From assembly GCA_022496805.1 (NCBI GenBank), contig CM040093.1, positions 1,552,501-1,616,500 of the forward strand: 64,000 nt of DNA. The letters are read 5' to 3'. Position numbers and translations under genes: made by a program. The DNA comes from Pohlia nutans. Lineage: Eukaryota > Streptophyta > Bryopsida > Bryales > Mniaceae. Below are positions 9,658 to 44,447 of this stretch, one piece after another; within the stretch, counting starts at the first letter, position 1, and every line of letters starts with the position of its first letter. The notes under the pieces were generated by a model. That model did not search any database and was not told the DNA's origin. It worked only from the letters and a program-made list of their open reading frames with translations.

Positions 9658-9660
9658 TGG

Positions 9661-9664
9661 TAGT
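9661..9664. repeat. Target duplication TAGT, left
   Basis: TAGT directly precedes the left terminal inverted repeat and is repeated at 44444-44447 after the right one. Fusing the two flanks with one TAGT gives an uninterrupted LTR end plus primer site like the one at 48388-48404. Confidence 0.85.
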
Positions 9665-9726
9665 AAGGTCATATTTGTTAAGTTGGGACTATTCCGATGA
9701 TTTGGGACTACTTTTGTGTCAATTTC
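9665..9726 (+). repeat. Left terminal inverted repeat (62 bp)
   Basis: Begins AAGGTCATATTTGTTAAGTT. It matches the reverse complement of 44382-44443 at 60 of 62 positions (differences at positions 12 and 16). Confidence 0.9.
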
Positions 9727-11098
9727 AGCTGTCACCGAGCTCTTCTTTTTAGATTTCTATGACAGTACAGAGTATCCGAGATCGTAAACAACCCTGCCAG
9801 AAGACTACATGCACCATGTATTTGTTACTATTAGGGGCAATGTAGTTGTTGGTTTACATCTTGTTTCTACGTTGTAGATAATTTGATAGTGCAGCTGTTA
9901 GAGGAGGCTACAATGAACTGCTCTCCTACATTGAATGTTTGGGGTATTATACAAAAGCCTTGAAGTATTTCGTATATGTTTTATAAACCTCTAGGTATAT
10001 TTAGAAGGGCCTCATCATGTATGTTGGATTTCAATTATTGTTGGATCGTATATGACATGTAGGATTCTCTAAGTGAGTAGATGTTCTTACTCCTATGCTA
10101 AAACAAATTCCCTACAGTTTATCTCATGGGGGTTTTAACTTTGTGCATACCGCCCTCCACAAATTTCAAGAATACCAAAATGACGGTGTACATTGTCAAA
10201 TATAAATACACAACAGTAACGATTCTCTTGCATGAACACTCTCAGATTCAAAGTCATGGTACTCTCTAAAATATCAAGTTTTACAATATCAGCATCGACA
10301 TTTTAGGTCTTCTACCGTTACTTAATAGTTCAGTCTGTCCTCCTTCATCTCTCGGTTCTAAGGCTAACCTCCTTATAAATATTCTACACTCATATATTCG
10401 ATATTGTACTTTATGTTTCTAGATACTAAAATTGGACTCAGGCGCACTGCGTGCCGGTTACTTCCTGATGCAGCCTCCTATAGGAACTCACTATAATTAT
10501 ACATCCTTTTCTAAAGAACAGGGCACTATTGCGTACTTCTTTTATATGCTTCCAAATCACTGTATTTCCTCTTAGGATTTGATTGTCTATGTTCTCCATT
10601 GCGGTTGTCAGGATTCTCCTTGCAAATGATACACATAATTGGTTAGTTCTTCTGCGTTTTGTTCGCTAGAATTGTTGTTCTTCAAAAACCAACCGTACGA
10701 ATAAGGAACTTTTTGGCCTTCATCTTTAACTTTACATTCACTTTACAGTGCCTTTTTCGCTATGTTTTGCGAGCTCTGTATATACATCATGTCTTCTGCA
10801 TTTTATATACAAAACATATTACAGAGGAATGGGTTTAAAAGGGAGGTGCATAATTACGAGACCATGTTCTTTGTTGTATAGAGTACCCTTCAATACTAAA
10901 TTGTTTTGTGGCCAAAGTAAACCTTGGACTTGAACGATGTCAATCAGCACTGTACATTTGTAAGGTGATAGACATGGCAATTGGCAAAATTTGATGAGAA
11001 AAAAACAGAATACCAGTTGAAAACTGTCATCCCTTGTTGCGTTCAACATATACAGGCGTACATGACCTTCACAACAGTGCTACTATTCCCCTGTAGAA
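9727..11098. other. Left subterminal non-coding region of the giant element
   Basis: AT-rich sequence with no ORF of interest and no copy of the palindrome recognised. It may hold the 3' end of the transposase-like gene transcript and its terminator, but no specific signal can be pointed to. Confidence 0.4.
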
Positions 11099-12961
11099 CT
11101 AGTCACTATCTGATGAGCTCGCTACTTTGGGGGCATCTTCAGTTGCTTGAATGCTACATGCTATTCTCGCTAGCGCTTGCAGAATGTGCTTTTTCGGAAT
11201 GATGACGGTTCTTGCTGCTTGACTTGCTTTTCGTCTCCACGAAGTTAAAATTGATGTTGTACTCGTCATTTGCTCCTCATACAATTCATCCACTTCCCAC
11301 TTGAAGTTGTTGGAAGTGTCCCACTGTTCGTATGACCTACTTTCTCTCCCTCGCCTGGTACATGGCTTATACCATTGCACTCTTATCATCTTGTAATTGG
11401 CATCACCAAATGTCATTATTGGATCCGATCGGGCTTCTGCCAACCACACAGGCGCCGTGCTATCTACTGCTGCTCGCACTAACAATAGATGTCCAGCTCG
11501 ACAATCTCTCGCAACGCGGAACGATGGCCTAGGTCTCAAGCTTCGAGGTCCAATATAATGGTCATCTTCAGCGAATTCATCGCGTAGAATTCCATCCTCA
11601 GTGTATAATGTCTGCACTTCGAATGATTGCCTTGTTTGTGGCCAAAATCCCATACACAGTACATCGACAGCTTCCATTTCAGGTTCTTCCAAAGCTGCTT
11701 TAACCCTTTTCCAATACTCAATGAGGTGTGCGTGTTGTCGCGTATATTCCCCTGACTTGTCTGAATCGCCAACAGACTCCCAGTGCTGTATGAATCCTTG
11801 TAACCCTTTCACTATGTCTGCTTGCCCCTTCATTCCGCGTGGTAACACTGCCTTCGGGATCCCTACTGGCAATTTCGGCTTCCCTTCCTCGTCCTCCTTC
11901 CATAACTTGATACCCTCCGCAGGTCGCCATCTCTCATCTGTGCAACGCAATTTGTACTGCATCAATGGCCAACCACTCGCGTCCCTGTAAAAGCGGAATT
12001 GTCGCCCTTTCGAATGACAAATTAGATGATCCTCGCTAATGAAATCTTTGATGAATGACTTAAAATCCGGCACTTCCTCTATTAAGGCTGGAATGAAGGA
12101 TTCGTCATCTAAGTCCATGTATGACTTCATCAACAATGGTATTGTTGGATAATCGTTCTCTCGCAGTTTCATGCTCCAACGACCAAAGGATGCATCTACA
12201 TCATCGTGCGTGTGCCCTACCACCATGTATGACACTTGAATTTCTTCGAATATTCCTTTCGCAACAAGAAGAGACCAAAAGCATTTGACATGGCGGCTCT
12301 TGTTGTCTTTCCAACAATTGTCCAGTTGGACATGCAGAGTGGGCGGCAGCTTTGTAAAGTCGGCTGTGGGCAGTCCTGGCTTCAAAGGCACAGAAGATAT
12401 ACACACCTCTGATCCGACAAGTATCGCTTCGTATAATTCTGTTGTCCCCGTTCCCGCAAATAGTGAGTTAGGCCTCTCACTCTTTGGTGGCCTCTCAAGG
12501 TCCTGAAGCAGTTTTGCAATCGATCCTATCGTCTGGTTGCTATCAGCGGGATACACATCTAACGCATAATGCGCATACTTCTTGTCACCATGACCATGTG
12601 CAAGCATTCCCGTCACAGACACTGGGAGTTTCATGAGCCCGTCCACCGCCTTGTTTTTTGATGCAAAGCACGGGGATGCTGTTTTTGAATGGTCTACTTT
12701 ATCGTGCATTATACACAACACTTGCGACGGACGATAGCAAGCTAAGGCTCGGCTTAAGTAGTAGTAGGCCCGAGATGCCTCCTGCTCTCGGAGATGACTC
12801 TCCAGGAGTACAAGGACGTGCTTGTACCCGGGCGATCCGAATGCATGGACGTTGCGCAATCTCGTTAATTCATCGCATCTCCCGCAACGAGCAAATGAAT
12901 CACCTCGACGCTTTATCTGGTACTCCGAGAAATGTTCTTTCCGGAGTTTGCTGCAAGTAGA
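11099..12961 (-). CDS. DUF7869-type transposase-like protein, main exon
   Basis: An uninterrupted minus-strand exon of about 620 codons begins at a good acceptor (CTCTCAG) at 12961 and ends with TAG at 11099. After a small cysteine pair (RCGRCDEL) come the blocks MHDKVDHSKTASP (about 12.68 kb), LHVQLDNCWKDNKSRH (about 12.3 kb) and VVGHTHDDVDASFGRW (about 12.2 kb). An acidic residue in each of three blocks, with the GHTHxDxD motif, is the signature I associate with DUF7869-type proteins, which look like RNase-H-fold DDE transposases. This is pattern recognition only. The C-terminal third is less distinctive. It lies 1.4 kb from the left end of the giant element, in the usual place for a transposase. 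The intron upstream (12962-13173) holds a palindrome copy, and both exons meet in phase 0. Confidence 0.65.
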   Translation of the reverse strand, partial: STCSKLRKEHFSEYQIKRRGDSFARCGRCDELTRLRNVHAFGSPGYKHVLVLLESHLREQEASRAYYYLSRALACYRPSQVLCIMHDKVDHSKTASPCFASKNKAVDGLMKLPVSVTGMLAHGHGDKKYAHYALDVYPADSNQTIGSIAKLLQDLERPPKSERPNSLFAGTGTTELYEAILVGSEVCISSVPLKPGLPTADFTKLPPTLHVQLDNCWKDNKSRHVKCFWSLLVAKGIFEEIQVSYMVVGHTHDDVDASFGRWSMKLRENDYPTIPLLMKSYMDLDDESFIPALIEEVPDFKSFIKDFISEDHLICHSKGRQFRFYRDASGWPLMQYKLRCTDERWRPAEGIKLWKEDEEGKPKLPVGIPKAVLPRGMKGQADIVKGLQGFIQHWESVGDSDKSGEYTRQHAHLIEYWKRVKAALEEPEMEAVDVLCMGFWPQTRQSFEVQTLYTEDGILRDEFAEDDHYIGPRSLRPRPSFRVARDCRAGHLLLVRAAVDSTAPVWLAEARSDPIMTFGDANYKMIRVQWYKPCTRRGRESRSYEQWDTSNNFKWEVDELYEEQMTSTTSILTSWRRKASQAARTVIIPKKHILQALARIACSIQATEDAPKVASSSDSD

Positions 12962-13042
12962 CTGAGAGATCACTTTCTCTCCACATTCCCTTTGAACCTA
13001 CGCATGTTATCCAGTTACAATACTTAGTTATACGAGCACTCT

Positions 13043-16000
13043 GTGTGCAATTGCACACTGTCTATTCAACAGTATTGCTTATCGTCACAGCAGACGACAG
13101 TGCCGTCTATAATCATGACATTTCAGCGGACTAATTCCTGGCAACAAAGAGGGGAAAGAATTACGTCATGTACCTTGTTCACTTCATCTAATATGTTCTT
13201 CCACTTCGTTCCAGCCGGCAGAACTTTCTCCACAACCTTCACTCCCTTCATTGCGCCCTTTGCTAGAGTGTGAGTTCTGTGTGGCATAACATCTGCTGAT
13301 GATGCTAATATCATCGACATCGTTTGTACTGCTTGAACGTTTCTTCTTACCAAGTCCTCCATGCTGTTGGGCACGACGTCCTTCTGCTTCATAAGCGCGG
13401 TATCGATAAAAGTCCGTCTTCGACACACCGTACATCATGCGCCATGCGGAGAAACATACGATCTTTCCTTCTACTACACATACTTTCTTTGCTGTCTGGG
13501 GTACATAGTGAGAATTCTTGTGCACTGCAAGTCTGAGATTGTCCTTGAACTTTGTGTCGGAGTGGTGCATCTCATACCTCAAACTCTCTACCACGTCGGG
13601 GGTAACCTGATCCAGGCAACGCCGTTTGCAACAATACGACCTCAGCGCTTTAGTTATGGAGTCCTTCATAACAAGAACATCTTTTCGCTTTGGTTGTTTG
13701 ACATATCCAGTATGGCGAAGCGAGAAGTATTGTCTACTTCCTAGACGATCACCTAATCGGTTAGCTTTTGCTTTAACTACTTCGTTGTGCTTTCATTTTT
13801 GATCATACAAACTGACGCCTTCGTACAATGTTCTCTTTACAGGCCACCTCTGCAGGGTTCGATATGCTAGTGATGTGCATTGTCCATACACTTCACAGAC
13901 CACTACGCCGACGTGGTCACTTCCAAGCGGAAACCTAGCATCTATCGATTGCCATTCCTTTGCAAACTCGACGTAGGCCGTAGCGACGACCTCCCCATTG
14001 TCGTTCACTAGAGAAACCTCTTTTTTGCACCACTCATCTCGGCTGAGACCCCGGCAATGCGGAATGGGCATCTCGTCATCCGGGATGGCGTACACAGTTT
14101 CAGGCTCCTCGACATCAACATCCCTGCCCTGCAAGTGACGATGGTCATTTCTCATGAAAATGCAGCACGCATGACTGACAGCGTCGTCATCATTCACTGT
14201 ATACTAGCACGACTATCAGCGACTAGAGCATCCACACCACATCATGAGCAGTCCACATGGTTTGTCCTCATTTTACCCATCGCCAACACATCCTACAATA
14301 CCTATGTATTCTGTCTTGCAGTAACGGAAACCTCATTTCCTTTGCAAGGCACTGCAACTTTCTTACCGTATCGCTGAAATCCATGTCCTCAACCACTGCA
14401 TACACAGGCTCATCAAGCACGAAACGCAGGCCTCACCTATCAGCACTGAACATGTATCATGCGTATCAGTGCCCACGATACCCAATTATTCAACAGTCAA
14501 AATGTATCATCCTTCATTCACATGTCGCACCCCTCATCAGCACAAATTACATGATTGTACAAGTCATGCATGTCCAGAAATAGAACTTCTACAGAAGATT
14601 TCTTATAATTTCATTTTCATAATGATCTGAAACAAGGAGTACAGTACCTGTTCACTTTCCAGTTGGCAATTCTACGCGTAGTAGTTTCCAATTTCACGGG
14701 TACATACATGAACACCAACCCTACTACTCGAGTGACACTGACAAGCACTTAGATTAGCTACGTCCATGTCAAACTACAAACCTTACAAACTACATAGATG
14801 TCACTAACATCTGAAGTTCAGGCAGTCCTGTCTAATATTCTCATGATGCCTACTCGTACCCACGGTGCAATTGCACACTGACCACAGGAGTCGAGGGTCT
14901 GCTAACGGTGATGAGATAACATGTGCAATTCTGTCGGTTCATACATACTCGGATGCCGGCTTTCGGGTTTCATTAGCCACATGCAGAGGCGGTAAATTCT
15001 AGGTTCTCTTTGTCTGCACTAGTACAACGTGCTCTTTACAGTGCAATTCCCCACTGCCACAGGCCTCGCGTAACATGGTTTTCTCCCGTTTGTTGGTAAA
15101 TTGAGGATCTAGAGGCGTTATAGTATTACGGGATAATCCTCAGACTCTACGTTCGCTGAAGTTCTCTTATCGTTCCCAACAGTGCAAACTAACAGTTTTC
15201 CCTGTCCAAGCACTTAGCAATTGCACATTGGACAAACACCTCAACTCTTGTCTTCCCTCTTGGGATTGAATAAACTCTCCCTCACTGCGATCACTGAAAA
15301 CTTCCGCATTTTCCTAAGGCAAGTCCCCTCCGAGCAAGTTCCCTATGGAGTCACTGACTAGTTTCTCTCTCTACATCCATACGTCAATCTTCTAAACCTT
15401 CTCAGTGTTCAACCACGTACAATCTTGCATGTGCAATTGCAGTCAGGAAGTTACTTATGGAAGCACAGTATGCCTTCCTCGTTGTACCACTGCAGGCCAT
15501 TAATTCCTCTATCTACAAGAGCTACTGTCGCTTTCTGCACTCTTCCCGTTCCTTGCACTCGAAAGGATCTACCATTGTCCCTCTGGGTTTGCAATTTCTA
15601 TGGTAGACCGGGAGTAGCAGTGGCCACCACATCTGTATCACTCGTATCATTTATTCTAATACTTCACAAACTCGACTTCCGCCTCCTGCAATCGCTTTCT
15701 ATAAGCTCTGAGTTGACAACTCCAGGATCTGTCTACAAGTTTACTGCCTTTCAACTCTTAAAAGTCCAGCCCACCCGTGCCTGGAACAGACGTCCACTAT
15801 TCCATGCACTAATCCAATTTTCCTCCAGCCATTCTGAGTAAAGAAAACTCTTCCACTGTCCATTCCGATCTTGCTGCCCAGGTTCCTGCAACTGACTCCT
15901 TCGCTTTCTGCCCGCTCAAAGTGCAAGGATTTTCAGGATTTGGGCGGGCAGCTGCAATCACAATTCTCTCTCGAGCGGCTGAAGACTGCCCGCTACCACT

Positions 16001-16049
16001 ACTTGTAGTGTACCACTGTCCGTTCCCAGTGTGCAATTGCACACTGGGA
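13043..16049. repeat. Palindrome copies, left cluster
   Basis: Copies of the private palindrome: 13043-13058 (in the intron of the transposase-like gene), 14863-14880, 15039-15056 (degenerate), 15216-15232 (half), 15430-15446 and 16024-16049. The last is a perfect 26-bp palindrome whose centre reads CAGTGTGCAATTGCACACTG. Confidence 0.85.
13174..14196 (-). pseudogene. Upstream exons of the transposase-like gene, decayed
   Basis: The minus-strand reading from an acceptor near 14196 (TATACAG) gives a segment with VSLVNDNGEVVATAYVEF and FPLGSDHVGVVVCEVYG, resembling the N-terminal region of plant En/Spm-like transposases. It reaches an in-frame TGA at 13793-13795 and continues in the same frame as HNEVVKAKANRL, GSRQYFSLRHTGYVKQPKR, then VCFSAWRMMYGVSKTDFYRY. 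Near 13330 the conserved reading shifts frame (HGGLGKKKRSSS in one frame, then QAVQTMSMILASSADVMPHR in another), which suggests a one-base indel. It ends LDEVNK at a GTACAT donor at 13173. With one stop and one frameshift this gene copy is probably inactive, unless the model is wrong or the assembly has errors. Confidence 0.5.
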
Positions 16050-17512: not shown

Positions 17513-20112
17513 GCAGTTTTCTCGGGTGGGTCACTCTTCATATCTTTTGGGTACCACGTGCGGCGAGGGTGTGTTTTTTGGGGGGCTATTTACCTCCTAG
17601 CTGAAATTAAAAGGACCCCTATGATTACTTAATGGGAAAAAATGGCCTATATTATGGACTCTATCATTTTTTATAAAACGGTGATCAATGCAATTTTTTA
17701 TATGCTATCTTCCTTGTAAAGGCTTAAATATAATCTAAAAGTAACATGACTTTAAAAATTTGAGAAAAATGGCCTCAAGAAAATGACCAGAACTTAACCT
17801 TCTTTCATACATTCTGGAAAATGTGCACTTCTAGACCTACTTTTCGTCCACCGCGCAGCTGACCGCCCTTTCCTACCAACTGTGCTCCAGCTGTTCCCCC
17901 CCCCCAAAACAAACTGTACTCAGTTTAATACCTTGGATCCCATTCGCAAATCCCTAAATTACATGTACTAAAATCATAATGGACCAAAATTGTGGTGTAC
18001 CTAAATTATTTATAATGGCGTGTACTCTTTCATTGCATTCTATCTTATTTGTAATTTTTTTATAAATTCTTATAAATTTTACTTATGATGAATAAAACCC
18101 ATGCTATTTTCTGCCGCACGTTGTTTGTAAAATGCAGTAAGTGACCCACCCGAGGCAGTTTTGCAAAGATGGATTATAAAATGCAACCTAGAGGGATATT
18201 TTGAACATGATATATGAATAAAAGTTGTACGTTATGAATTTTAGATTCTATCCATACGGTTAGATCTATGATTGCTATTACCAATAATTTTGTATAAAAT
18301 TTGAAACGTGAAATTCAATATTTTTTTGTAATTCAATTACGAATAAGATATTGACAATCTAATAATGAAATTCTTTGTGATTGGTTGAAATGTAATACTC
18401 TTAAGTGTAGTGATTTTTGGAGATTTTTTGGTTGCTTAATTTTATGAGTTGACTTTTTTTTTACCACTTTTACACTGAAATCTTCAAAATTTTGGGTGAA
18501 TCACTACAACATGAAATGAGGCATAAAAATTTCACAAATCATCTCCTTTCTAATCGGATCACATATGCATGAAGCTAACTTCCCATAGAATCTACGGTAA
18601 AAATTCCACACTGCAAAAAATGCATGACGGATGAGAAATTATGGATGAAATCTGTACATCGTCCAAAAACTGGACGTTTAGGCAGTTAGGGGTTAAGTTG
18701 CATCTATTTTGAGATGCATGCGGTTTAGGTCACCACAGTAAGAAGCTCAGAATAGTGAACTTCCGGTTTAATTTTTGTTTAGACTTATTTGTTTTCGTCA
18801 GTATACAGAGAAATAATTTCATACATAACATTGTGAAGTCTGTAATTTTGTACTCCTCTCCGATGCTATGACATGCACGTTGTTGTCAGCTTGTAAGTTT
18901 CTTTTACTTAGTTAAGTCCTACTAAATTCCCTCATATCATGCCGAGTGTAATCTTCCATTGTAGTTTCAAAAAAATATATTATATCGGTACAAATCAAAT
19001 GTTGTTGTTGGGAGTGCAGACCCTACTATTATAGATTGTAATGAAGCTGCACAGTTTTAAAATGAAGCTTTATAATTTATGAAAATCAGTGCCCCCACCC
19101 GTAACTGCCCACAGCCGTAAGTGCCCACATCCTTGTGAAATTTGAAGAATTGCAAAGATGCATTCTAAAATGCATGTACGAGGGATACTTTGAACTTCAT
19201 GCATGCATAAAAGTTGTACTGTACATCAGCAATTTGAGATTCTATTCATACAATTACATGTGCGATTGCTATCAGCAACGATTTTGTATTAATTGTTAAC
19301 TTAGCATGCAAAATGCTATTCTCATTTGATTATGAATATGATATTGACAATCTGCAGATCACATTTGTTGTTGGGGGATGAAATGTAATACCCGAACTGC
19401 AGTGATTATTGAGAGAATAATTCGTTCTATAAGTTTATTATTGGATTTTTTGAAAACCACTTCTGAACTAAGACCTTACATTTTTTGGATTAATCATAGC
19501 AATATGAAACATGCCAACAATAATATTCAACATACGTAAAACTTATGTTTACAATTAGTTAACCCCCAACCGCCCAACCATGCATATTTTGCATGATGTA
19601 AGGATTTGCAGTTCGTTTTCTCATCCATCATGCACATCTTGCACTATGGATTTGTTATTGAAACTTCTATGGCAAGTTAGGTTTGTGCATAATTATGTAA
19701 TCCGATTAGAACGGGGATGATTTGTGAAATTTGTATGCCTCGTGTCATGTTGTACTGTTCCACCCAACATTCCGGAGATTTCAGTTTAAAAGTGCTCTTG
19801 AAAAAGTCAACTACTAAAATTAAGCAACCACAAAATCTTCAGAAATCACTACACTTACAGTATTACATTTCAACCCATCACAATAAAGTTCATTATTATA
19901 TTCTCAATATCCTATTCGTAATCATATTAGAAAAGAATGAAAAAATTTAAGTTTGAAATTGAATACAACAATATTGGTGATAGCAATCGCAATTCTAACC
20001 GTCTGGATAGAATCTAAAATGCATAATGTACAACTTTTATTCATTCATCAACATGAAAATATCCCTCTTAGTTGCATTTTATAATGCATCTTTGGGAAAC
20101 TGCCAAATCTGA
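17490..20112. repeat. Three-copy repeat family forming a large inverted repeat
   Basis: A unit of about 570 bp occurs at about 17490-18697 (interrupted by the hAT-like MITE), partially at about 19130-19520 in the same orientation, and at 19559-20112 inverted. Shared landmarks are TAAAATGCAAC, GAATAAAAGTTGTAC, GAAATGTAATACT and the end GGCAGTTAGGGGTTAA (GGCGGTTGGGGGTTAA in the inverted copy). It is AT-rich and non-coding, probably an unnamed non-autonomous element. Confidence 0.75.
17521..18154. mobile_element. hAT-like MITE, 634 bp
   Basis: Terminal inverted repeats of 15 bp (CTCGGGTGGGTCACT) are flanked by an 8-bp duplication GCAGTTTT at 17513-17520 and 18155-18162. The related sequence at about 20.1 kb (reverse strand) has the undisturbed site, which confirms the insertion. 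An 8-bp duplication is typical of hAT elements. No coding capacity is seen. Confidence 0.8.
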
Positions 20113-20454
20113 ATAGCATGCATGTTCACAAAAGTTTTTTTTCCCTTTGTGAGGCTAATATATCTACAATCAATTGTAATGCATCACCGCATGACTGTAT
20201 TGCAATTGTAATCTTATTGAAATGTGAAAGTGTTCTTGTCATAAATTACTTGAATAAATTGCGCAGATTTCAAAAATGATATGTTTAAGCATTTTCCTTT
20301 GAAGTAAACATCATGCGTGAGTACTGTCACTACCTCTAAAAATACTAAATGTCATTATTCACAGATGCTATTGAATGTAAAATGAAGTGTGACTAACGTC
20401 AGTAACCATTATTGTAGGGGTTATTCTCAATACTCACACGTGATTTTTAATCCA

Positions 20455-20630
20455 ATGGCAATATTCGTTTAGTTGGGACCTCGGTTGGGACTTTTCCATC
20501 ATATTGAGACTTTTTAAAATCTACAACTGGCATAGATCCAGTGGGCAATTCCTCACTGGATCTATGCCAGTTGTAGATTTCAAAAAGTCCCAATATGGTG
20601 GAAAAGTCCCAACTAAACGAATATTGCCAT
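20455..20630. mobile_element. Hairpin MITE sharing the giant element's terminus
   Basis: A near-perfect hairpin of about 176 bp. Both ends begin ATGGCAATATTCGTTTAGTT and continue with GGGAC. The stretch ATATTCGTTTAGTTGGGAC is identical to the right terminus of the giant element. The left arm has a 12-bp extra repeat of the GTTGGGAC block. The loop contains a degenerate version of the private palindrome (CCAGTGGGCAATTCCTCACT). No clear target duplication was identified. Confidence 0.75.
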
Positions 20631-23601: not shown

Positions 23602-23859
23602 TATTGAGGTAATTGATGCAACGTAGTATTGCTAGAAGCCAAAGACGTACGGGTGCTAAATAATGGTGTGTGGGAGGAGGGGTTAGGCATGGGCTGATCT
23701 CTAGAGTGTCCTTGTGATGAGTTATCCCATATGGTTTGTCCATGGTGACCTCCTAGTGTACACTACTTAAGGTGGAAGGCCTTTGAGTAAAGATCATCTC
23801 TTTCTACGCATTCCTTGTGTTTGTGTGTGTGCCTTGTGCAATCTTCTCTACCTTCAATA
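23602..23859 (+). repeat. Copia 5' LTR
   Basis: 258 bp with short inverted ends TATTGA/TCAATA. No difference from 28802-29059 was seen. It contains the promoter and, in the 3' copy, the transcript end by general LTR logic; individual signals were not resolved. Confidence 0.95.
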
Positions 23860-23873
23860 GGTTATGGGCCCAC
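23860..23873 (+). other. Copia primer-binding site, half-tRNA type
   Basis: GGTTATGGGCCCAC follows the LTR without a gap. It is complementary to the anticodon arm of plant initiator methionine tRNA (GTGGGCCCATAACC), not to the tRNA 3' end. This matches the half-tRNA priming known for Drosophila copia, Ty5 and Osser. Confidence 0.85.
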
Positions 23874-28826: not shown

Positions 28827-29059
28827 TATTGCTAGAAGCCAAAGACGTACGGGTGCTAAATAATGGTGTGTGGGAGGAGGGGTTAGGCATGGGCTGATCT
28901 CTAGAGTGTCCTTGTGATGAGTTATCCCATATGGTTTGTCCATGGTGACCTCCTAGTGTACACTACTTAAGGTGGAAGGCCTTTGAGTAAAGATCATCTC
29001 TTTCTACGCATTCCTTGTGTTTGTGTGTGTGCCTTGTGCAATCTTCTCTACCTTCAATA
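28802..29059 (+). repeat. Copia 3' LTR
   Basis: 258 bp, the same sequence as the 5' LTR; followed by the duplicated target TATTT. Confidence 0.95.
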
Positions 29060-29064
29060 TATTT

Positions 29065-32000: not shown

Positions 32001-32996
32001 GTGTACAAGGCGGATACCATGCCGGGTATGGGCGGGTATCAATTCAGGGAGGGCGGTGTAGGGTTTCGCGCCCGGAGGTTCCTGCGTTCTGTCTGTGCTT
32101 GCACTCCCGCTCCTTACCGTTTGCTGTGCGCTGTCGTTGTTGTTGTGAGTGTGTGTTGTGAGGGTGTTGCGGGAGCTGCGCATGAAGGACGTGCGGGAGG
32201 TGCGCGTGAAGTACGCCTGGGAGGTGCGGCAGGAGCGCTCCATAGGCGGCGGGAGGATCGCGTGGAGGACGTGCGAGAGGTGCGGCAGGAGCGGTCGATA
32301 GGCGGCGGGAGGAGCGTTGTCAACTTCGTGGGAGCTGCGCTGCTCGAGGAAGGGGAGCGAGCGTCCGGCAGAAGAAGCGCAAGCGTGCAGGAGGTGCAGA
32401 GGACGGGGCGCGTGAGGAATTTTACATCAAGCCACAGGTGCGTTGAGCTCATACTGTGCACTGTGGCCACGGTATTCTTTTCTGTCTTCGTAGATTTTTC
32501 TGTGCTGGATCCGCGCGCGTAGCGTAGCTGGACCGGAGGACGAGGACAACATAATAAGAGAGTTACATTCAGAGATGCCCAAATGGATACTTCGTTTTTT
32601 TGTAGTATTGCACTCGGGTTTTTCTTACCATCGCTGGGTTTCTAGAGTTCCATTGTAGGGTTTTTGTCATGTCCAATGTGTTTACTAGTCGTTTCAGTTG
32701 GTTTTTTCTCTGTTTGAAATCTTCACGTGTAATAGATTCTTGTGTGGAATCTATGCCACTTGTAGATTTCACATCGTCTGCAAACTCTGGAAGTGAAGAA
32801 GAAGATTTATGAAATTTGCGTCAGTAACGTATACAAGTTATCGGTTTTCTTTCTCGCTATTCTGTCGCAGTACATCTTTCCCATATACCTGGATATACTT
32901 GTGAATATACGCACGCTGTAATTCAATAAAATGTATTTTCAATCGTATACTTAGCGTAGGCTAAACGTATACAACAGTAGACTCCGTAGCCACCCC
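29065..32996. other. AT-rich non-coding region with a GC-rich patch
   Basis: No recognisable gene. A poly-T run lies at about 31349-31368. At about 32040-32520 a GC-rich patch contains a direct repeat (GAGGTGCGGCAGGAGCG plus GATAGGCGGCGGGAGGA type, near 32220-32310) and open frames on both strands without known domains. At about 32745-32770 a short imperfect hairpin resembles the inner arm of the MITE at 20455. Confidence 0.4.
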
Positions 32997-35055
32997 ACTG
33001 TGCAATTGCACACTGGCGGAGGCAGAGAGGCAAGGAAATAAGAGAAGGATTTCGTCTAGAGATAGCCACTTCATTTGCCCGCAATAGAGAGGGCAGACAT
33101 TGGGAAAGGCCTGCCCTGCCTACCCGGGCTTCTTGAAAATTTTCAGGGCACCTGATGTTGTTCTAGTGAAAATAAAGTGAGGCAGTTCATGTGTGGGTCA
33201 AGACGATAACATTCCGTGATGACTGCACGCTGTGCTTTGTGCAAAGCTGCTAATACGATATTGCCCGGTGGCCAATGATGTTTGGTACACACTGTCGGAT
33301 TGTTCCTGTTCGGGGGGGGAATAGACATGCAGGCCCCTGTAGGATTGTCTCTGCTCAGAGAAACACAAGGACATACTGTAGAGCGTGTGCATGGACAGTA
33401 ACCACTGCTGCAGTTGCACGCTAGTAAGGATTCCACTGCAAGTGACCACTGGTGGCAACAGCAATGCTGCCATGGTACAATTGCACAGAAGAGACTTGTC
33501 CGCAGCAAGCATGAGCTTCATGCTGTGTGTCAGGAATTAGACGAGGATTGTAATTTACCTCAGCATAGGATAATGTATGATGTGATCTAATGCGCTTCAA
33601 GAAAGCCACACCATGCAACTCAGCTGCCAATGTGCAATTGCACAATGGCAAGACGTGCCGGCTTACAGTAGGGTTTTAACTTTGATCAAAAGACAAGCAC
33701 TGGGAATTGCATGATGTGTTGTCAGTAGCTTAATAGAATTAATTTATGCTTCGCAAACAATAGCACTCAGACCATGCAGCTATTGTGCAACTGCACACTG
33801 ACTTGACATGCGTATGCTTAGACAGTACGATGACATCGTGCTTCTTATTTTGCAATACTTTGATGAATGATTGCAATACTTGAAGGATGCAACACACCTA
33901 GGACAATTTGTTATTTGCGAGAAGCTTTATTGACGCATACCAATAACACCAAGCTGCCATTGTGCAATTGCATGCTGGAGACTTCCGTGTCCTTAAACTC
34001 TTGGATGTAACAAAGTCACCCCCTGTAACTACGCTGCCATTGTGCAACTGCACAATGGCAAGACGAGTCGGGTAACAGTAGGATTTCAACGTTGATAGGA
34101 AGACGACCACTCGGGACTACGATGTGATGTCAGTTCCTTCAGAGCATGTACACTTCGCAAAGGCAAGCATGAAATCAATGCTGCGATTGTGCAAGTGCAA
34201 ACTCGCGTGACCTGCGTTTTCTTACACTAGGATGTCATCGTGATTTCGAATTTGCAATGTTTAAGTGGAATTATCTCCTAGGAACAGATCGACAAAAATG
34301 TCTAATTCGTAAGAAGCAGCACTGACGCCTAGCATTAAGACAAAGGTGCCACCGTGCAATTGCATGCTGGCGAGACTTGCGTCTGGTTATTCTCTTGGAT
34401 TGCATCCGTGTCATGAAAGCGGGAAGAAGGCAATGCGATGCTATTCCAAAAGATGCAACAGGAGAACCCCACGAGGCTAAGAGGGTACTGTACAATTGCA
34501 GTGGCAGTACTTGCGATTCCTTACACAGTAGGCAATGATCGTGCTACTAGTCGCCAGAAGGGGCGCAAGGATTCAAAATAAGGATACTGCATAGCATAAT
34601 TATACATTACCGCATAGAAAGCTGCAAATGTGCACATGCAAACAGCATTGTCTACATGATTGTAGTCTTAGTGTCATCTACATGTAGTCTTAGTGTCATC
34701 TACATGTAGTCTTAGCGTCGTCTACATGTAGTCTTGGCGTGCAGTCTTGGACTGTCAGGATAGCGGAAACAGGATTCTGAACGCCGTAGAATCAGATGAT
34801 AAATAAGAACCGGTCGAGGTAAACATGCCAGTGTGCAATTGCACACTGACGTGGCTACTGAAACCGAACAAAAGCATGTACACTCTGGCTTTGCAGACCA
34901 TGATAATGAGAAAAGCAATCGCTATGGTGGAACTAAAGTTATGATCGTGATCTGAGTGATCTGAGTGGAAAGTTTGCATTACGTCTGTTGTGTCGTCAAA
35001 CTTCATCAGAACTGGCCTAGTAACCAGAGCTGACGGTGTGCAATTGCACGGTGGC
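32997..35055. repeat. Palindrome array upstream of the ParB-like gene
   Basis: Thirteen copies in 2 kb, at about 32997, 33403, 33470, 33626, 33782, 33953, 34036, 34184, 34348, 34486, 34626, 34826 and 35027. The typical spacing is 135-205 bp. The best copies read CCACTGTGCAATTGCACACT and CAGTGTGCAATTGCACACTG, often with GCC and GGC at the outer ends. Several are degenerate on one arm. The array stops 64 bp before the ATG at 35119, so it could be an operator or centromere-like region. Confidence 0.85.
34651..34740 (+). repeat. 22-bp tandem repeat
   Basis: About four units of ACATGTAGTCTTAGTGTCAT plus CT, the last ones with small changes, inside the palindrome array. Confidence 0.8.
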
Positions 35056-35118
35056 GGAGTCGTGACTATTATCTGCCGTGTAAGTGCTGACAGAAGAAAA
35101 TAAAATTCTCATGCAGGT

Positions 35119-36315
35119 ATGGCGAAGAAGAAGGCCGCAGAGAAGGTGGTAAGTTTGCCATATTTGGGGAACCTGAAGAGACTCTTCCAAATCATACACA
35201 ACGTCAATATCAGGGGCGACTTCAATGAGGGAAATTTTTTTGCCATGAAGGATAACCTCGTGAACAAGCAGTGGTTTGTAGCGTTGGTAAAGCTTCCCAG
35301 AAACAGTGGTTATGCGCTTCAGGTGCACGTTGATGGGTCCCTACTTGTAGGTGAAGGAGAAGCATTCGCTGCGCTGAGTAGCATGACAGTCACCGACGTT
35401 AAAGTGCATAAGCCAGACACCATACTATGGGTTGCAAACGCAGGGGGTGCTGTGGGAAACCTTGTGTTCTCTGGAACCGATCGTTTCCGGGCAGATAAGT
35501 TCATAGACTCCGTCACACTATTCGAGGAAAGCATTCAAGAAGTTACGAAGAAACCTATGCTCCCTAAGAACTGTGTGGAGAACCTAAGCGGTGATGCTGT
35601 CAGACTAACTCGTGCACTTAAAGCCTTCATGAAGAATATGAATGAGACCAACAAGCTAATCCTCAAAGCTGGGAAGGTAATCGGGCCAAAACGAAAGGCA
35701 CCAAGTCAGGAGGCAGTCACGCCGGCCCTAAGCCGCGACAAGCGCAAAGACGCGGAAGTACAGGCAGTGCCTGCGGGCGACACTATAGAAGAGGAGATTA
35801 TCGAAGAGGAGATTGACGAAGAGGAGCGTGAGGAGGAAATGCTGATTGAATCTACAGCGCCCGACACCGAAGAAGCCCAAGAAGACAATGTCGCAGCGGA
35901 TGTCGAGGGTGAAAGAGAAGGCGGCGATGAAGATGACAATGAGGATGCAGCCCACGACGAGGGCGACGAAGAGGAAGGCGGGCCATCGGAAGAGCTTTCC
36001 GAGACCCGAACGAAGAACAGAGGGGACGCGGAGGAGACGTCCCAACCACAGAATGTGGAGGAAAGAATTGAGCTGTCCTCAGGTGAAGAGTCAGAGGACA
36101 AAAACTACCAACGCGAGGCTGAACCATCAAGTGAGGATGAACATCTGGATGAGGAGGAGGAGGCTCCCGCCGATCCCACAGAGGAGGAGGAGGAAGTTGA
36201 CCCAGAGAACGCACCAAAGAGGAGGAAAGTCACGAGGCGGAAGTCGACGGCCAGAAACATGCGAACCGTGGCCGACCTGATTGATGCAGAGCTCGGGGTA
36301 CCTTTGCTGAATTAG
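35119..36315 (+). CDS. Acidic nuclear-type protein, ORF1 of the giant element (398 aa)
   Basis: The ATG at 35119 has a good context (G at -3 and +4) and follows a possible acceptor TCTCATGCAG. Residues 1-190 look globular (LPYLGNLKRLFQIIHNVNI, YALQVHVDGSLLVGEGEAF, DTILWVANAGGAVGNLVF). Residues about 215-365 are extremely acidic (repeated EEE and DE). Near residue 365 lies PKRRKVTRRKST, which resembles a classical nuclear localisation signal. The frame ends in TAG at 36313-36315. The same frame reopens with ATG at 36319, so this ORF and the ParB-like gene may once have been one protein of about 1,680 aa. The domain is not recognised. Minus-strand ORFs across 35.7-36.1 kb are shadows of the acidic repeats. 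Confidence 0.7.
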   Translation: MAKKKAAEKVVSLPYLGNLKRLFQIIHNVNIRGDFNEGNFFAMKDNLVNKQWFVALVKLPRNSGYALQVHVDGSLLVGEGEAFAALSSMTVTDVKVHKPDTILWVANAGGAVGNLVFSGTDRFRADKFIDSVTLFEESIQEVTKKPMLPKNCVENLSGDAVRLTRALKAFMKNMNETNKLILKAGKVIGPKRKAPSQEAVTPALSRDKRKDAEVQAVPAGDTIEEEIIEEEIDEEEREEEMLIESTAPDTEEAQEDNVAADVEGEREGGDEDDNEDAAHDEGDEEEGGPSEELSETRTKNRGDAEETSQPQNVEERIELSSGEESEDKNYQREAEPSSEDEHLDEEEEAPADPTEEEEEVDPENAPKRRKVTRRKSTARNMRTVADLIDAELGVPLLN

Positions 36316-36318
36316 GCG

Positions 36319-39300
36319 ATGAAACACCCACTCAGAACACCTCTTGGAAAGGCAATGAAGATAGAGGAGTACCAGTTGGAGCTTCGGCAATTCAAGACCC
36401 GATTCGCGGATATGTACATCTGGGGCGAGGACCACATCAAGGAAGTGAGCATAGATCAGATGGAGCCTGCGCCTATTACTCACAAGTATCGGCCATTTCA
36501 CGACAGCCTGGCGGAATCACCGCTCCAAGTGTTTCTGTCCCAGCTGCAACCAAACAAAGAGAGGCTCACCCTCATGCCAAAAACAAACGAGAAGCCAAAG
36601 ACATGGGAGAAGGTAGCGGGGGGAACCTTCTACATCATCAACGGGCAACACTCATGGTCAGCTGCCAAAAGACTGGTGCGTAGCGACAAAGTCGCACCTA
36701 GTGTGAAGGCAAAGTACAAGACCTTCCAGTGTGAGTTTGTGTGGGGATCAAACTACGAGAGACTGTCGGAATTGTCGAGGCGCACGAACAACACAAATCA
36801 GCACCACTGGGACTCGCCGGAGTATTTGCTGCACATTGAATATGCTCGGGCCCTGTTCAACAAGTACAAGCGACCGAAGGCGCCGAAGGCTGGCGAAAAG
36901 ATGTCCAAAGCAGATAGGGAGAAATTCAAGGTATGCTATCAGTCTACGTTAAGACCTCGTCGAAGTTTTGAAGTTCTGAAGTCCCGCCAGTGTGCAACTG
37001 CACAGTGGCCTGTCGGCAATGCAGGACGTGTCATGTGTCCCGGGCTTGGATGGATTGTGATATCCCAGGGACAGCGGTTTCTGATAAGAGTTGGTACGAG
37101 TTCTGGAGTCCCGCCAGTGTGAAATTGCACAGCGGGAAGTCAGCAATGCAAGATGTGTGGTGCAACCCTCTGATACCCAGGGACACTTGAGTTATGGATT
37201 CTCATACCCAGGGACACATCATTATCTGTTAATAGTTCGTCAGCGTTATAAAGTTCTGGAGTCAGGCGCTGTTGTGAGTTTTTTCGTGATGACATTCATT
37301 GGCGGCATTGTGGTGCAGTAATTTCAAAACAAGGCGGTCGAGACCTTGAACGCCATGACGTTCAAGAACGCCAGGAGAACCGCAAATCAGTACGTTGGGG
37401 AACTTCGAATCATTTCCGCCGATGACCATCTCTATGACACCGTCATGAAAGCATTCAAGTGGTATGAGAGCGGGGATCTGATCAACCCAGACACTGGCAA
37501 TAAGTGGCGTGACGACGCCAAAGACACCTGGACGCGAAAGTTTGTTGTGGCCTACCAGTTCAAGGCGTGCAGGGGACTGGGGGCAGAGTCAATCCTGGAG
37601 GCCGCTCAGAAGATAATGGCGGGTCTATCACCGGATGGGGAAGTGTTGACGTCGGGGGATGTGCCTAAAATATATGTGGGGACGAACCGACCAAAGAACC
37701 CGTACTGCTACAGTCTGAAAGAGTGGATGGACCGCAAGAAGGCGAAAAACGGAGTAGTGCGCTTGCTGCACAGGGAAGTCCCGGGGGGCCTCTGGATCGA
37801 TGACGATATTAACCAGACTGCGTGGTCGAATTTCAAAGCCCAGCACGGGTTCACTTCCGCTAACATGGACGAGCTAATTCATCGCGCCATGAGAACTTTC
37901 CTGAAGAAATTCATGAGGGCCAGCGACAAACCCAAACGCGAGCAGGACGCCGTGCCCCAGGCCTTCACGGCGGAGATGCGCAGGGTTGTCTCGAAAACCA
38001 GGGACAAGGCAATGGAACTGACTCCCCTCATTGCTGTGTACAACTTCACAGGGACGCTGACCCCATTCAAGATGCCAAGCCTCATGCACATGGAGAAAGG
38101 GAGAAGTACTCCTGCCCATGACGACGCCTCCCACTGGTTTCCTGAATCGACCTCTAGGATCATGTTCGTGGGAGGGATAATTGACTTCAGGCCTGTGGAT
38201 AAGGTCTTTCAGCGGAAAGATTATGTGGTGGACGTTGAGCACGGAAGGTGTTACAGTGGGTGGCTGAAGAAGTTCGTGGCGGATGTGAACGTCTTGAAGT
38301 CTTGTCCGCACTGGATGGTTATATCGCACGCCAACACTGGAAAAGAAGCTCTCGCCGCGATGCTGGATCATCCGAAAGAAGGGGCATGGACCGTCACACA
38401 CAGCGGGTATGTGGCAGCAGCAGCTGAGGCTTACTTCTTCAAACCCACAACCATAAAGAAAGGAAATGGCGTTGATATCTTCATACTCAGCGCCACGCCA
38501 TGGGAAGCACTGGACTGGCCATTACTAGTCAGGTCTCCCGAGAGGAGCAAGAAGTTTGGTCTTGTACGAGAGTACCAGTTGCATAGGGATGAGCTGCGAA
38601 TGGAGGTGTACTTGGACTTCGTGCAGCTGTTGCCCAAGGAGAATCCGGGGCGGGACTCTGTTGGCCCTCGAAGCGTTCTGTGCATCACCGCCGGGCGGAA
38701 GTGTATGATAGCGGCTACTGTAAGTGAATTCTGCCATTTCTATTGTTGTTGATTTATGCATGTTGCCGGTCATGGAAGGCCACTGTGCAATTGCACACTG
38801 GCCAGTCAAAGGTTACCTGCTAACAATGATGTTGTGGTACTGGCAGATGCTTGGCATTAGACCTGCGGCTGTGCTTCTACCGACGGACGATTTGCAGGGT
38901 CACGTCAGCAGCCATGAAACTGGCTGTTACCTTACAGGTTTTGAGCACGTCTTCCACACTGAAACATATGCAGAGACTGCGGACGTACCGGAAGCTTTGG
39001 GGATATTATCAATTGTCCCGGGTACTTCTAGAGCTGGATTGGAGAGGCACTCCAAGCACCGTCAAGATACATCAGACGCATCTGTGGACGAAGGCGAGGA
39101 CGCCCGTGACAAAAGCCCTTCTGTTTCCGGGGCACGTGTTGATGAAGACTGCGCTGCCGCTGAAGGGGACGGAGGTGACAGGACCGACAGCGTTGGTGGA
39201 GTACACGGGACACCCACAGACGCGAGGGATGGGCCTCCTGTGCCTGCTGGTGGCGATGCTGACGAAGATATGGCTGACGTAGAGGTGCCCGCACAGACTA

Positions 39301-41501
39301 TTGCTGTAACTCTAGAGTCCCCTGCTGACGTAGAGGTGCTCGCACAGATTGGCGCTCTAACTCTAGAGTCCCCTGCTGACGTAGAGGTGCCCGCACAGAC
39401 TGCGGCTCTAACTCTAGAGTCCCCTGCTGACGTAGAGTTGCCTGCACAGACTGCCGCTGTAACTCTAGAGTCCCCTGCTGCCGAGGTATTAAAGCGGTCC
39501 GAGAACGCAGAGGCTATCATCCTGGAGACGCAATTTTCTGGACATGTGGCGCAGTGTCCCAGAGGCGACGATGAGTCTCCGTATGACTTTTTATACGAGA
39601 ATTTAGAGCCCTCCGTCATGCCAAACTTGCCGGAGTCGCCGGAGAATGTCTCACACAACACTATTGCTAGGGAAATAGTGCCCGAGACGGCGCCGGCGGA
39701 CATTTCCGTGCGCAGCGTGCAGGCGGAAGAAGTGTTCGTACTTCGTGGGCCACATACATTGCAGTTTGGTGGAGCGGCCGGTGACCCCATGGAAGTGGAC
39801 TCCAGTGGGGTGATGCTGGGCTCGAATGTGTTGGTGAACCTATCAACCCCTCCAGCGGCGGAAGCCCCCGTGGCCGACGAGTGCGCAGTCCATGTAGAGC
39901 TTAGTATGTCTGCACTGGCGCCCAGCATCACAGAGGGTAGGGACAAGGAACCAGCGGAGGATCCGGAGCTGGAAATTACCAAGGTGGGAGTTGAGGTTCT
40001 GAGGTCAATTAAGGCGGACCCAGACGCGCAAGGTCAGCCGTCAGATCCTGTGGCACCGTCAAACAAGGACGATCCTATTGAGGTGTCGACGGACTCCGAA
40101 GAGGAGTTCCGGGAGAGTAGCCGGCGTGCCATACCGTCGGATGATGAATCGGACATCTTCGATACTCCGGTTGAGGAGGGAGAGTCTGAACAGAAAGTGG
40201 ATCCCTTAAGGATCCAACTGCGCAAAGTCGGAAAGGGAAAGCTGTCGGTCAACAGGGGAACTCGTCAGACGGCCCGACAGCTGCACACTGAGAACCAAAT
40301 TTTGCTGAAGAAACTGGAAATGGAGAGGAAGCGCCGGGAGGAAGCGGAGCAAACCCTTCGAACGGCCGGCCTGGACTCCACGGTGAGTGGATCCGCCTTC
40401 ACCGCAACTCCCTCAACGTTGACAACTTCAATGGCCTCTGCACCGGCGGCTTCTGTATCGGAAGCAGTAGTACGCCTTGGTACGGAAGGTGGAGAGGACT
40501 GCATACCCGCTACACAGGTGAGACCCGCCCGCATCCTTGAAGCGCTGCACGGTGACACTCCCGCTGTGCAACTGCACAGTGGCAAGAAGTAGACGCAACT
40601 AATTACTGTCGTTGATGGTTGAATGTTGTCCTTGCAGGAGTCCACATTGTTCGTGTCCAGTGCAGACATCACTCCCGGAAAATCTACAGAGGTAAGCTTG
40701 TTTGTCTTTCTGTATTGCTGCCGCTTTCTGAAATGGATTTGATGCTGCTAATGAATTTAGCGCCCACATTAAGGGTTAAGGCGCGGTCTGTTTCAGGGCA
40801 TATGAATATTTGCAGAAATCTGAGGACGAGAAGAAGGTATGGACAAGGTCCTGACGACACCGATGACAGTAAAACGCCGTTACCAGGGCCTGAACCATAT
40901 CTCCCGTCTGTACAACACGAACAGTTTTTGGTATTCGAATAGTACTAGCCTCGTAGAGTGAAGCTGTCACTTGCAGCCTAAACGGTTGCGATAATATAAA
41001 TCCTTAGGAGTTTGTAAATCTGGCTTGCTGGACCTGGTGCCATCGGACGGACTTGTAAACGATGTACCGCACACTTTTGAGACTGTATGGACATAGCGGT
41101 GCTATGCCTTGCAGGGAAGCCTTTGTACAGTGTTGTCAACAACATACTGCTGCACAGAGAGATGTGAACGCTATGATTAACAATGCGGAATTTCCGCTGT
41201 GTTTGCAGTGTTTAAACGTACATAGCTTGTAGATGTTTCCACTGGATCTTACCGTTCACCTACTCATCTCGTGATATACAATGTCGTGCCATGCCCAGGG
41301 TAAAACAGAATTCTGGCTGGATGTACGATATCATCAGCAAAAGGTAAGGTTGTCTATTTTACCTAGAGCACTTCATGGAGTTGCTAGCTGATCGTATGGA
41401 TTAATTCTTGACTATGCGAAGTCGTGTGTTGGTTTACCATGCAGCGAATAATATGGAGGAGGCTCACTAGAGAGATCTCTGACACGGAGTCGTCGTCTTA
41501 A
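36319..41501 (+). CDS. ParB-like domain protein with methyltransferase-like region, multi-exon
   Basis: Proposed exons: 36319-36930, 37334-38719, 38847-40517, 40638-40691, 40816-40836, 41299-41343, 41445-41501. All junctions are phase 0, giving about 1,281 aa. Exon 1 reads like a ParB/sulfiredoxin-fold domain: EVSIDQMEPAP (about residue 41), a spacer, GGTFYIINGQHSWSAAKRL (about 103-121), then LSELSRRTNNTNQ (about 149). The usual G-x-H-R has S in place of R. Exon 2 has GVDIFILSATPWEALDW (about 583) followed by SVLCITAGRKCMIAATMLG (about 650, crossing into exon 3). This has the motif IV then motif I order of beta-class N4/N6 DNA methyltransferases but without DPPY or the GxG loop, so it is probably inactive. 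Bacterial ParB-methyltransferase fusions are known. Exon 3 is a long acidic linker ending in a coiled coil (ENQILLKKLEMERKRREEA). The three longer introns carry palindromes. The 21-bp exon at 40816-40836 (donor GTATGG) is the least certain junction. Confidence 0.6.
36986..40582. repeat. Palindrome copies inside introns of the ParB-like gene
   Basis: Copies lie at 36986-37009 and 37112-37136 (intron 36931-37333), 38778-38803 (intron 38720-38846) and 40558-40582 (intron 40518-40637). None lies in a proposed exon. The intron at 36931-37333 also has three copies of a short ATACCCAGGGACAC-type repeat. Confidence 0.8.
39273..39479 (+). repeat. 51-bp coding repeat, four units
   Basis: Four tandem units encode the 17-residue repeat ADVEVPAQTAALTLESP with small changes, in the acidic linker of the ParB-like protein. 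Multiples of three keep the frame. Confidence 0.9.
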
Positions 41502-42212: not shown

Positions 42213-42785
42213 TGCTGGGACTCCCGGGACAGTCCCATTTCACTGAAAGTCCTTTTGGGAGTCCCGGATCACTCCCATTTGTACTGAAATTTCCTTTGGG
42301 ACTCCCGGGACACTCCCATTTGACTAGAATTCCCTTCGGGAGTCCCGCAGTACTCTCTTTTCCACTGAAACTCCTTCTGGGAGTCCCGGGACACTCCCAT
42401 TTCTACTCATATTCCCTGTGGTAGTCCTGGGACACTCCCATTCTCACTGAAATTCCCTTTGGGAGTGCCGGGACACTCTCAGTTTCACTGAAATTCCCTT
42501 TGGAAGTTACGGGACACTCTCCTTTTCACTGAAATTCCCTTTGGAAGTCCCAAGACCCTCCCATTGCACTGATGTTCCATTTGGGAGTCCCGGGACACTC
42601 CCATTTCACTCAAATTCCCATTGGAAGTCCTGCAATACTCCCATTTCACTGAAATTTTTTTTGGGACTCTTGCAATACTCCCATTTCCTCAAAAATTCCA
42701 CTTGGGAATCCAAGGACACTTCGAAGCCATTGGAACTGTTCTTGGGAGTCCCGGAATACTCCCATTTCCACTAACACTCCTATTT
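42213..42785. repeat. Palindromic minisatellite, about 41-bp period
   Basis: About 14 units, each containing a near-palindrome of the type GGGAGTCCCGGGACACTCCC followed by a less conserved ATTTCACTGAAATTCCCTTT spacer. The central units are best preserved. Open frames across it are products of the repeat. Confidence 0.9.
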
Positions 42786-44381
42786 AGACTCCTCCATTAT
42801 TATTTTTTAAAGAACATGGTGTCTCTTCACTCATATGGTACCCCAAGATATAAGATATACTTCGAAATGGAGTCCCGGTACTCATCGCTGCATTGGGCAC
42901 TAATTGCAAATCGTACTCAAAAAGCATAGAGTCAGCGACTTCCCAATAACTTATGGAAAAATATTTTTCAAAACAACATAAAGAATTGGAGGGTGTTCCT
43001 TATGTTGTAAGGCACCCATAATGAGAACAAACAAAAATAATTTCGACATGGTATTGCATTTCTTAGAGTAGCCGTCCGCATATGTCGATTACGGCATAGT
43101 GACCACTCATAGCAAACGAATCGAGACATGTCTGCTCCACCTTCCCTGTACAAATGGGTGAACTTGACGACTACTACTTGTAGGGTGGTCACGCATGACA
43201 TACATAAGCATGAGGCAGTACTAAGTTCAATCTCGTCAGTATACAGAGCCCACTTTGGTAATTAAACTGTCGGCAATCCAGGGTGGAACATGTAATGAGC
43301 AAATTGTGTTGGAAGGGTTAACTTTGTAGGTTGCATGAATATAGAGAACCAGTGGAAATAATTCTGGACAGTCGGTTGTCTGACAGTGATAATTCCAGCC
43401 TGAATAGGGAATCCTGTAATGTAGTAGGATCATACAATAATAGCATCAACAAATACTTGTCAGTTGGGACATGTTGGATCAGGAATAGCAGTTCCGTGAT
43501 TCCCGCAATGACGAATATCTCCCTGCAGATGGTAAAGGTACAGCTCTATTTTGTCCCCGAGGTATATAATTGTGGAAGCTGACCTCAAGTTTAATAGCTG
43601 AGTGTGGACTTCCGGTCGGTCAGTTCTTGCTTTGCGTTGGTTCTCCCCACCAGGCCAGCAGTGGCTGCTTGGTATGTATTGTGCCCTTCGCGGCAAATTC
43701 CCTTTCATTTGTTTCAAAAACGAATGAAATAAGTTGAGTGTGGACATGCATACAAAGAGTGGGCTGCCTTTTTTAAGTTCCAATGTATGTGCCCCTATGG
43801 CGGATTTCAGAGGCGCACGTGGAGTTTAAGGACGTGGGCGAGTATTTCAGATTTGTCGTAAATACATAGTTTCAGATTGAGACCTGAACCGCATGTAACG
43901 CATCATGTCGGTGTGATTTCCAATACCATAGTTCGTCTGATACTTGTAGGTATTATAGAGACCCATACCGAAATAACTATATGCGGATGAGATTGGCAGT
44001 GGCAAGCGTTATAAATCGCGTCGAAGACCAATTGCAACACCCAGGCCAGCGTATAATTTCCTACAATGTATGTTGCCCAGCCACTTCCTGTGTGCGGTAC
44101 TCCTAGCTAGAAGTATTGGCCCGAAATTCCAGGTTTGGTGCATGTTTACAGGGACCGTGACCGGTTCTTCAAGTCCGGGGCTTGGACCGAGGGTTTCATT
44201 GGAATTCTATGGGCAGTACTTCCCAATAGGTGCATTCATTTCTTATTTCAGACCACCGTCATAACTCCTGCAATGGTTTAGGGTTTAGGGTTACTCAAAT
44301 TTGGCATTTCAGTGCAATATGATGTATATAACGAGGACGTTTCAGACAATGGAAGCCTTTCTACAAGTGCTTTGGAAGCCC
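42786..44381. other. Right subterminal non-coding region of the giant element
   Basis: No gene recognised. A short telomere-like run (GGTTTAGGGTTTAGGG) lies at about 44276-44291. Confidence 0.4.
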
Positions 44382-44443
44382 GAAATTGACACAAAAGTAG
44401 TCCCAAATCATCGGAATAGTCCCAACTAAACGAATATGACCTT
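44382..44443 (-). repeat. Right terminal inverted repeat (62 bp)
   Basis: The reverse complement begins AAGGTCATATTCGTTTAGTT and pairs with 9665-9726 over 62 bp with two differences. It is followed by the TAGT duplication at 44444-44447. Confidence 0.9.
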
Positions 44444-44447
44444 TAGT
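44444..44447. repeat. Target duplication TAGT, right
   Basis: Second copy of the 4-bp duplication that flanks the giant element. Confidence 0.85.

Follow-up and report, generated by a model that had tools for sequence, protein, structure and literature searches.

A probable Sola-superfamily giant DNA transposon with a ParB-like accessory gene and dispersed palindromes in Pohlia nutans

Giant DNA transposons are known from the brown alga Ectocarpus. According to the accessible part of PMC12477816, its DNA transposons include elements larger than 10 kb and some larger than 30 kb, most of the giant families contain nested insertions, and the transposase gene is frequently broken. One of them, Sola1-1_Ec32 (21.5 kb), has, on the strand opposite to its transposase, a gene for 1104 residues in which a ParB-like domain is combined with an N4C/N6A methyltransferase domain. 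For such accessory genes that text suggests a role in binding and modifying the element that carries them, and names no binding site. Sola elements have a DDD transposase, 4-bp target site duplications and terminal inverted repeats (TIRs) of 11-1124 bp, as given in the accessible parts of PMC9033089 (Table 1) and PMC10741241, which list Physcomitrella Sola1 as a plant example and most Sola elements as 2-9 kb, some over 15 kb. Sola is not mentioned in the accessible part of PMC7466625. Here we analysed a 64-kb stretch of contig CM040093.1 of Pohlia nutans (the window) and found at 9665-44443 an element that is quite probably a giant cut-and-paste DNA transposon, Sola1-like by its features and so probably a member of the Sola superfamily, with an accessory partner gene of the same kind. 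The original prediction regarded such large elements as very unusual in plants; elements above 10 kb, and some above 30 kb, had already been published, for the brown alga (PMC12477816, accessible part).

The ends of the element are as follows.
9661..9664, unstranded: left target site duplication, TAGT (direct reading of the sequence; junction test)
9665..9726, plus strand: left TIR, 62 bp (60/62 to the right end)
44382..44443, minus strand: right TIR, 62 bp (self-BLAST and letter-by-letter comparison)
44444..44447, unstranded: right target site duplication, TAGT (direct reading; junction test)

Self-BLAST of the window aligned 9665-9726 with 44443-44382 (96.8% over 62 bp, E 1.9e-22), and letter by letter 60 of the 62 positions are identical, with two differences, in agreement with the original prediction. 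At E up to 1e-8 and over at least 40 columns, the self-BLAST gave no further match to the TIR stretch within the window. TAGT borders both ends, also as predicted. The left flank (9626-9664) is similar to positions 48427-48388 of copy B, a neighbouring long terminal repeat (LTR) element (95% over 40 columns); the LTR and primer site of the flanks are labelled Ty3 in the original prediction. Seen from the minus strand, the LTR of the right flank ends in ...GAGGAACTA, and ACTACCATTTGGCGACCATCTAGTG opens the left flank. When the flanks are joined with a single TAGT (ACTA on the minus strand), the LTR end is followed by ACTACCATTTGGCGACCATCTAGTG, which is an LTR-end/primer-site junction. The rebuilt junction has 25 letters identical to copy B (48388-48412), within a longer alignment to the copy B LTR; the junction of copy B itself reads ...GGTAACTACCATTTGGCGACCATCTAGTG on the minus strand. 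The claim that removal of the element with one TAGT retained restores such a junction was thus confirmed. As a caveat that counts against this reading, the right-flank LTR shares only about 78% of its letters with the copy B LTR over 190 columns, and by this identity the two are related but differ in age. A second caveat is a further gag-like frame (gag by inspection) to the right of this LTR at 45256-47154 in the same orientation, and the LTR may therefore be shared by two tandem copies. A single uninterrupted LTR is restored whether or not it served two copies. It is very improbable that the two ends come from different copies or from an assembly join with unrelated DNA between them. Only a single copy was seen, within the 64-kb window, which leaves room for this explanation; against it, both flanks rebuild one LTR junction, and a palindrome described below is common to both arms and absent elsewhere in the window. 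This palindrome, which is not part of the original prediction, is an independent sign that ties both ends to one element.

Two genes on opposite strands could be assigned to the element.
11099..14128, minus strand: transposase gene, DUF7869 (PF25273) (Pfam E 1.1e-43; 204 relatives; reading frames)
35119..40991, plus strand: accessory gene (gene model; relatives in which the first two parts share a frame; predicted fold)

The transposase gene lies near the left end and consists of an exon at 11099-12997 and coding sequence upstream to about 14128 (exon limits by inspection). It has an in-frame TGA at 13793-13795 and, when its frames are compared with the relatives, a frameshift near 13.35 kb. 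The named ones among its 204 relatives are 41-47% identical and point to a moss or a relative of mosses. DUF7869 was the only Pfam family found for the transposase, and sequence searches of the PDB gave no credible relative. The structure model predicts an RNase H-like DDD transposase fold, and the putative triad is conserved at D99 in 35, and at D226 and D268 in all, of 36 sequences. The model suggests that these aspartates are the catalytic residues and that the DUF7869 protein would be the DD(D) transposase of the element. If so, DUF7869, an uncharacterised domain, gains a candidate function. Besides, the C-terminal part (about residues 491-605 of the 11099-12997 translation) has structure matches to the BAH domains of EBS, SHL and AIPP3, which are plant chromatin readers; the same region also matches MazF and chromo-barrel structures, so the BAH-like assignment is tentative and a chromatin-reading module is a possibility.

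The features by which class II TIR elements that move by cut and paste are recognised were all found, namely TIRs, a target site duplication with a restorable empty site, and an encoded DDE/D-type transposase whose fold is predicted. These support the original prediction of a DNA transposon with matching ends. The element would have inserted into the LTR end, duplicating the 4 bp TAGT; the DUF7869 transposase would cut at the TIRs and insert with a 4-bp stagger. It resembles plant Sola elements in its 4-bp duplication (one insertion), its DDD triad (from the model), a TIR length within the range and its occurrence in a moss, and differs from them in its size of 34.8 kb, as compared with mostly 2-9 kb in the accessible descriptions. 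The element could instead belong to a DDE/D superfamily not yet described, with DUF7869 as its defining domain, and have acquired its accessory gene independently, as DUF7869 is an uncharacterised Pfam family whose name was not found in the literature searched. We consider this unlikely, because the 4-bp duplication, TIR length, DDD triad, moss occurrence and ParB plus methyltransferase partner fit the accessible descriptions of Sola1. In algae, giant KDZ and EnSpm elements likewise exceed 10 kb and have additional genes and nested insertions (PMC12477816, accessible part), but they have other transposases, while only DUF7869 was found by Pfam in the present element.

The accessory gene begins with an N-terminal part that has an acidic stretch (35119-36312), followed by an in-frame TAG (36313-36315), a ParB-like part (36319-36930) and an exon with a methyltransferase fold (37334-38719); further exons are placed at 38847-40517, 40638-40691, 40816-40836 and 40977-~40991, all exons being predictions made without transcripts. 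In relatives, the N-terminal and ParB-like parts are joined in a single frame. All seven accessory sequences that cover the region have the motif IINGQHSW, which we take to be similar to a ParB motif. The ParB-like part had no Pfam match and no credible profile or sequence match in the PDB. The predicted structure of the methyltransferase-fold exon has the fold and strand order of beta-class N6A/N4C amino-methyltransferases, and among sequences in the PDB it had no credible relative (best CagD at E 0.031). The catalytic motif of amino-methyltransferases is (D/N/S)PP(Y/F/W). This motif is absent in all eight sequences that cover the methyltransferase-like domain, and we therefore do not class the domain as an active methyltransferase. 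Since the usual motif is missing in every available sequence, the modelled domain is more likely to serve binding or scaffolding than methylation; it may have turned into a non-catalytic binder. A profile search with the accessory protein found nine proteins, two of them new. In Pfam searches of the pieces, of relatives and of the spliced protein, no family other than DUF7869 reached its curated cut-off. A 51-bp repeat lies at 39273-39480 within the coding sequence.

In its giant size, with a transposase on one strand and a ParB-like and methyltransferase gene on the other, the element is similar to Sola1-1_Ec32, compared by its description in the accessible text. It differs in being 34.8 kb with nested DNA and in its land-plant-like host, so that the ParB-like and methyltransferase pairing would extend to an apparent land plant. 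This also bears on the cargo genes of the original prediction: what was seen is one accessory gene, with relatives elsewhere and a published counterpart, and not a set of captured host genes. Scans of viral contigs found no relative of the transposase or of the accessory protein; for a virus-derived origin there was one PHROG row only (E 0.08), and none of the viral structures matched with an E of 0.001 or lower.

We also found that a palindrome (dyad) occupies 17 sites in the element, which is a new finding of this analysis.
13041..16046, unstranded: left-arm dyads, 3 sites (13041, 14861, 16027)
32996..40581, unstranded: right-arm dyads, 14 sites (32996, 33471, 33628, 33781, 33958, 34038, 34185, 34350, 34829, 35034, 36988, 37115, 38781, 40562)

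The consensus is TGCCAGTGTGCAATTGCACACTGGCA, with half-sites TGTGCAA-TTGCACA. A scan with CAGTGTGCAATTGCACACTG, allowing up to 4 mismatches, gave 17 matches in the 64 kb, all within the element, and none in any of 10 Markov-simulated elements. A position-weight search, with its threshold set at the maximum over 20 simulated windows, also gave 17 sites, all within the element and none in the 29 kb outside it. The two lists share 15 sites; the position-weight list, given above, drops 15211 and 20539 and gains 33471 and 34185. Of exactly repeated dyads with 6-bp arms, the left flank has none and the right flank has one, which occurs twice; in the element such dyads comprise two overlapping core words with 10 and 8 occurrences. 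None of the 17 sites overlaps a predicted exon, exons making up 38% of the two arms, and one of four sub-threshold matches (38034) lies within an exon. Each base of TGTGCAA is retained in 28-34 of the 34 half-sites. Pairs 1-7 and 9-11 bp out from the centre are symmetric in 12-17 of the 17 sites, the pair at distance 8 in 5/17, that at 12 in 10/17, that at 13 in 8/17 and those further out in 3-6/17. The most likely role of these non-coding dyads would be as binding sites of a dimeric protein encoded by the element, with the accessory protein, encoded on the strand opposite to the transposase, as first choice to bind them along the element, and the element would in this way recognise its own DNA. 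Dispersed dyads are not mentioned for Sola1-1_Ec32 in the accessible text of PMC12477816, and the paper nowhere uses the word palindromic.

A second DUF7869 locus, L001, is a 4.3-kb contig (4,327 bp) labelled as a cyanobacterial metagenome and probably represents eukaryotic (moss-like) contamination; its DUF7869 gene is 46% identical. It was the only locus from the genome-contig scan, which was run with the transposase alignment alone. Another dyad, TTTAGCTCGA-N-TCGAGCTAAA, is repeated in this contig: it matches 7 times when 5 mismatches are allowed and 10 times when 6 are, and every match lies outside the coding region (595-3438). With the limit of 6 mismatches, 44 of 50 simulations had none and 6 had one. 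The dyad has no match in the 64-kb window, and the TGTGCAA-TTGCACA core is absent from L001. Thus, each of the two DUF7869 loci has a locus-specific non-coding dyad. This is relevant to the idea that the dyads stem from a very small sequence that moves or duplicates, and are not binding sites. A duplication does hold several right-arm dyads, in two blocks of roughly 400 bp each (33599-34006 and 34009-34400, 70% identical), and for this reason the sites are not independent and we relied on no p-value. However, the symmetry weakens at more than about 13 bp from the centre, the flanks examined share little, no site lies outside the element, and the diverged locus has a different dyad in similar places; we regard such an origin as improbable.

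There is a substantial chance, if somewhat under even, that the dyads are sites of the transposase or of a transcription factor and that the accessory protein is not involved. The dyads adjoin both genes and also occupy their introns, and L001 has its own dyad together with a DUF7869 gene and no accessory relative in its 4.3 kb; the transposase thus remains an alternative dyad binder. On the other hand, no dyad comes closer than 3.4 kb to the left end or 3.9 kb to the right end, whereas sites for binding the ends would be expected at the ends. Peptides are a further point against this alternative. (G/W)QLPT, the peptide expected from a GGGCAAYTGCCC-type palindrome, occurs in 7 of 15 accessory relatives, within a linker of low complexity or beyond the predicted exon end, and in none of 120 transposase relatives; the pattern was chosen after it was seen, and three of the seven proteins are closely related to one another. 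At 40562, the TGTGCAAYTGCACA type would correspond to VQLH. Judged from the peptides, the change between the GGGCAAYTGCCC and TGTGCAAYTGCACA types appears to be matched on both half-sites.

In bacterial ParB-parS partition systems, ParB and its repeated palindromic sites belong to one mobile DNA. The present element likewise combines a ParB-like motif with repeated palindromes, a likeness only in how the two might work; unlike ParB-parS, no ParA was found among the frames read, the element is not known to act in partition, and the ParB-like fold is putative. A rather speculative extension is that the element has a self-recognition system, in which a ParB-like protein with a methyltransferase fold that has lost its usual catalytic motif binds an element-specific repeated palindrome, and protein and site change together between families. 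The dyads concerned are TGTGCAA-TTGCACA here, a GGGCAA type deduced from the peptides of relatives, and the dyad of L001. Binding of the dyads might serve protection from silencing, bridging of ends across tens of kilobases or copy control. If true, self-recognition would protect, silence-proof, pair or partition element DNA, as a eukaryotic counterpart of ParB-parS. As there is now a concrete candidate site, 17 times in one element, and a second locus where the dyad is another one, the self-binding idea is directly testable. Three points weigh against our reading of the element and its accessory partner. The Sola1-1_Ec32 protein is predicted, in the accessible text, to use the methyltransferase catalytic motif that the present protein does not have; no relative of the accessory gene was found in L001 (best tblastn E 0.042); and the peptides of the element's own dyad type, VQLH and AQLH, occur in none of the 15 accessory relatives.

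Several other repeats lie within the element.
18000..32000, unstranded: AT-rich middle with nested insertion(s) (composition; no above-threshold dyad)
23602..29059, plus strand: nested Copia-like retrotransposon (identical 258-bp LTRs; TATTT on both sides)
42216..42772, unstranded: tandem array near the right end, 81-bp unit, 6.9 copies (repeat search)

The Copia-like element is 5.46 kb long with a frame of 1,384 residues (Copia by inspection). The predicted size of 34.8 kb therefore holds as the end-to-end span, part of which is nested insertion: at least 5.46 kb is nested DNA, and perhaps more of the AT-rich 18-32 kb, in which terminal repeats of nested insertions were not found and one sub-threshold dyad (20539) lies. 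Because of the in-frame stops in both genes, the frameshift in the transposase gene and the nested Copia-like element, this copy is probably non-autonomous now, unless some of the stops or the frameshift are sequencing errors. The AT-rich middle also has a fold-back of inverted copies (18154-18696 and 19559-20104, 80%) with a related stretch at 19150-19509, and a near-palindrome at 20449-20636. Outside the element, copy B (47868-51274) is a young LTR element with LTRs 99.8% identical; its interior of about 2.35 kb has one frame of 748 residues (gag/protease-like by inspection) and little room for a polymerase, and it is probably non-autonomous. Near both ends of the window, a repeat of about 740 bp is present as inverted copies at 1900-2638 and 59423-60163 (80%).

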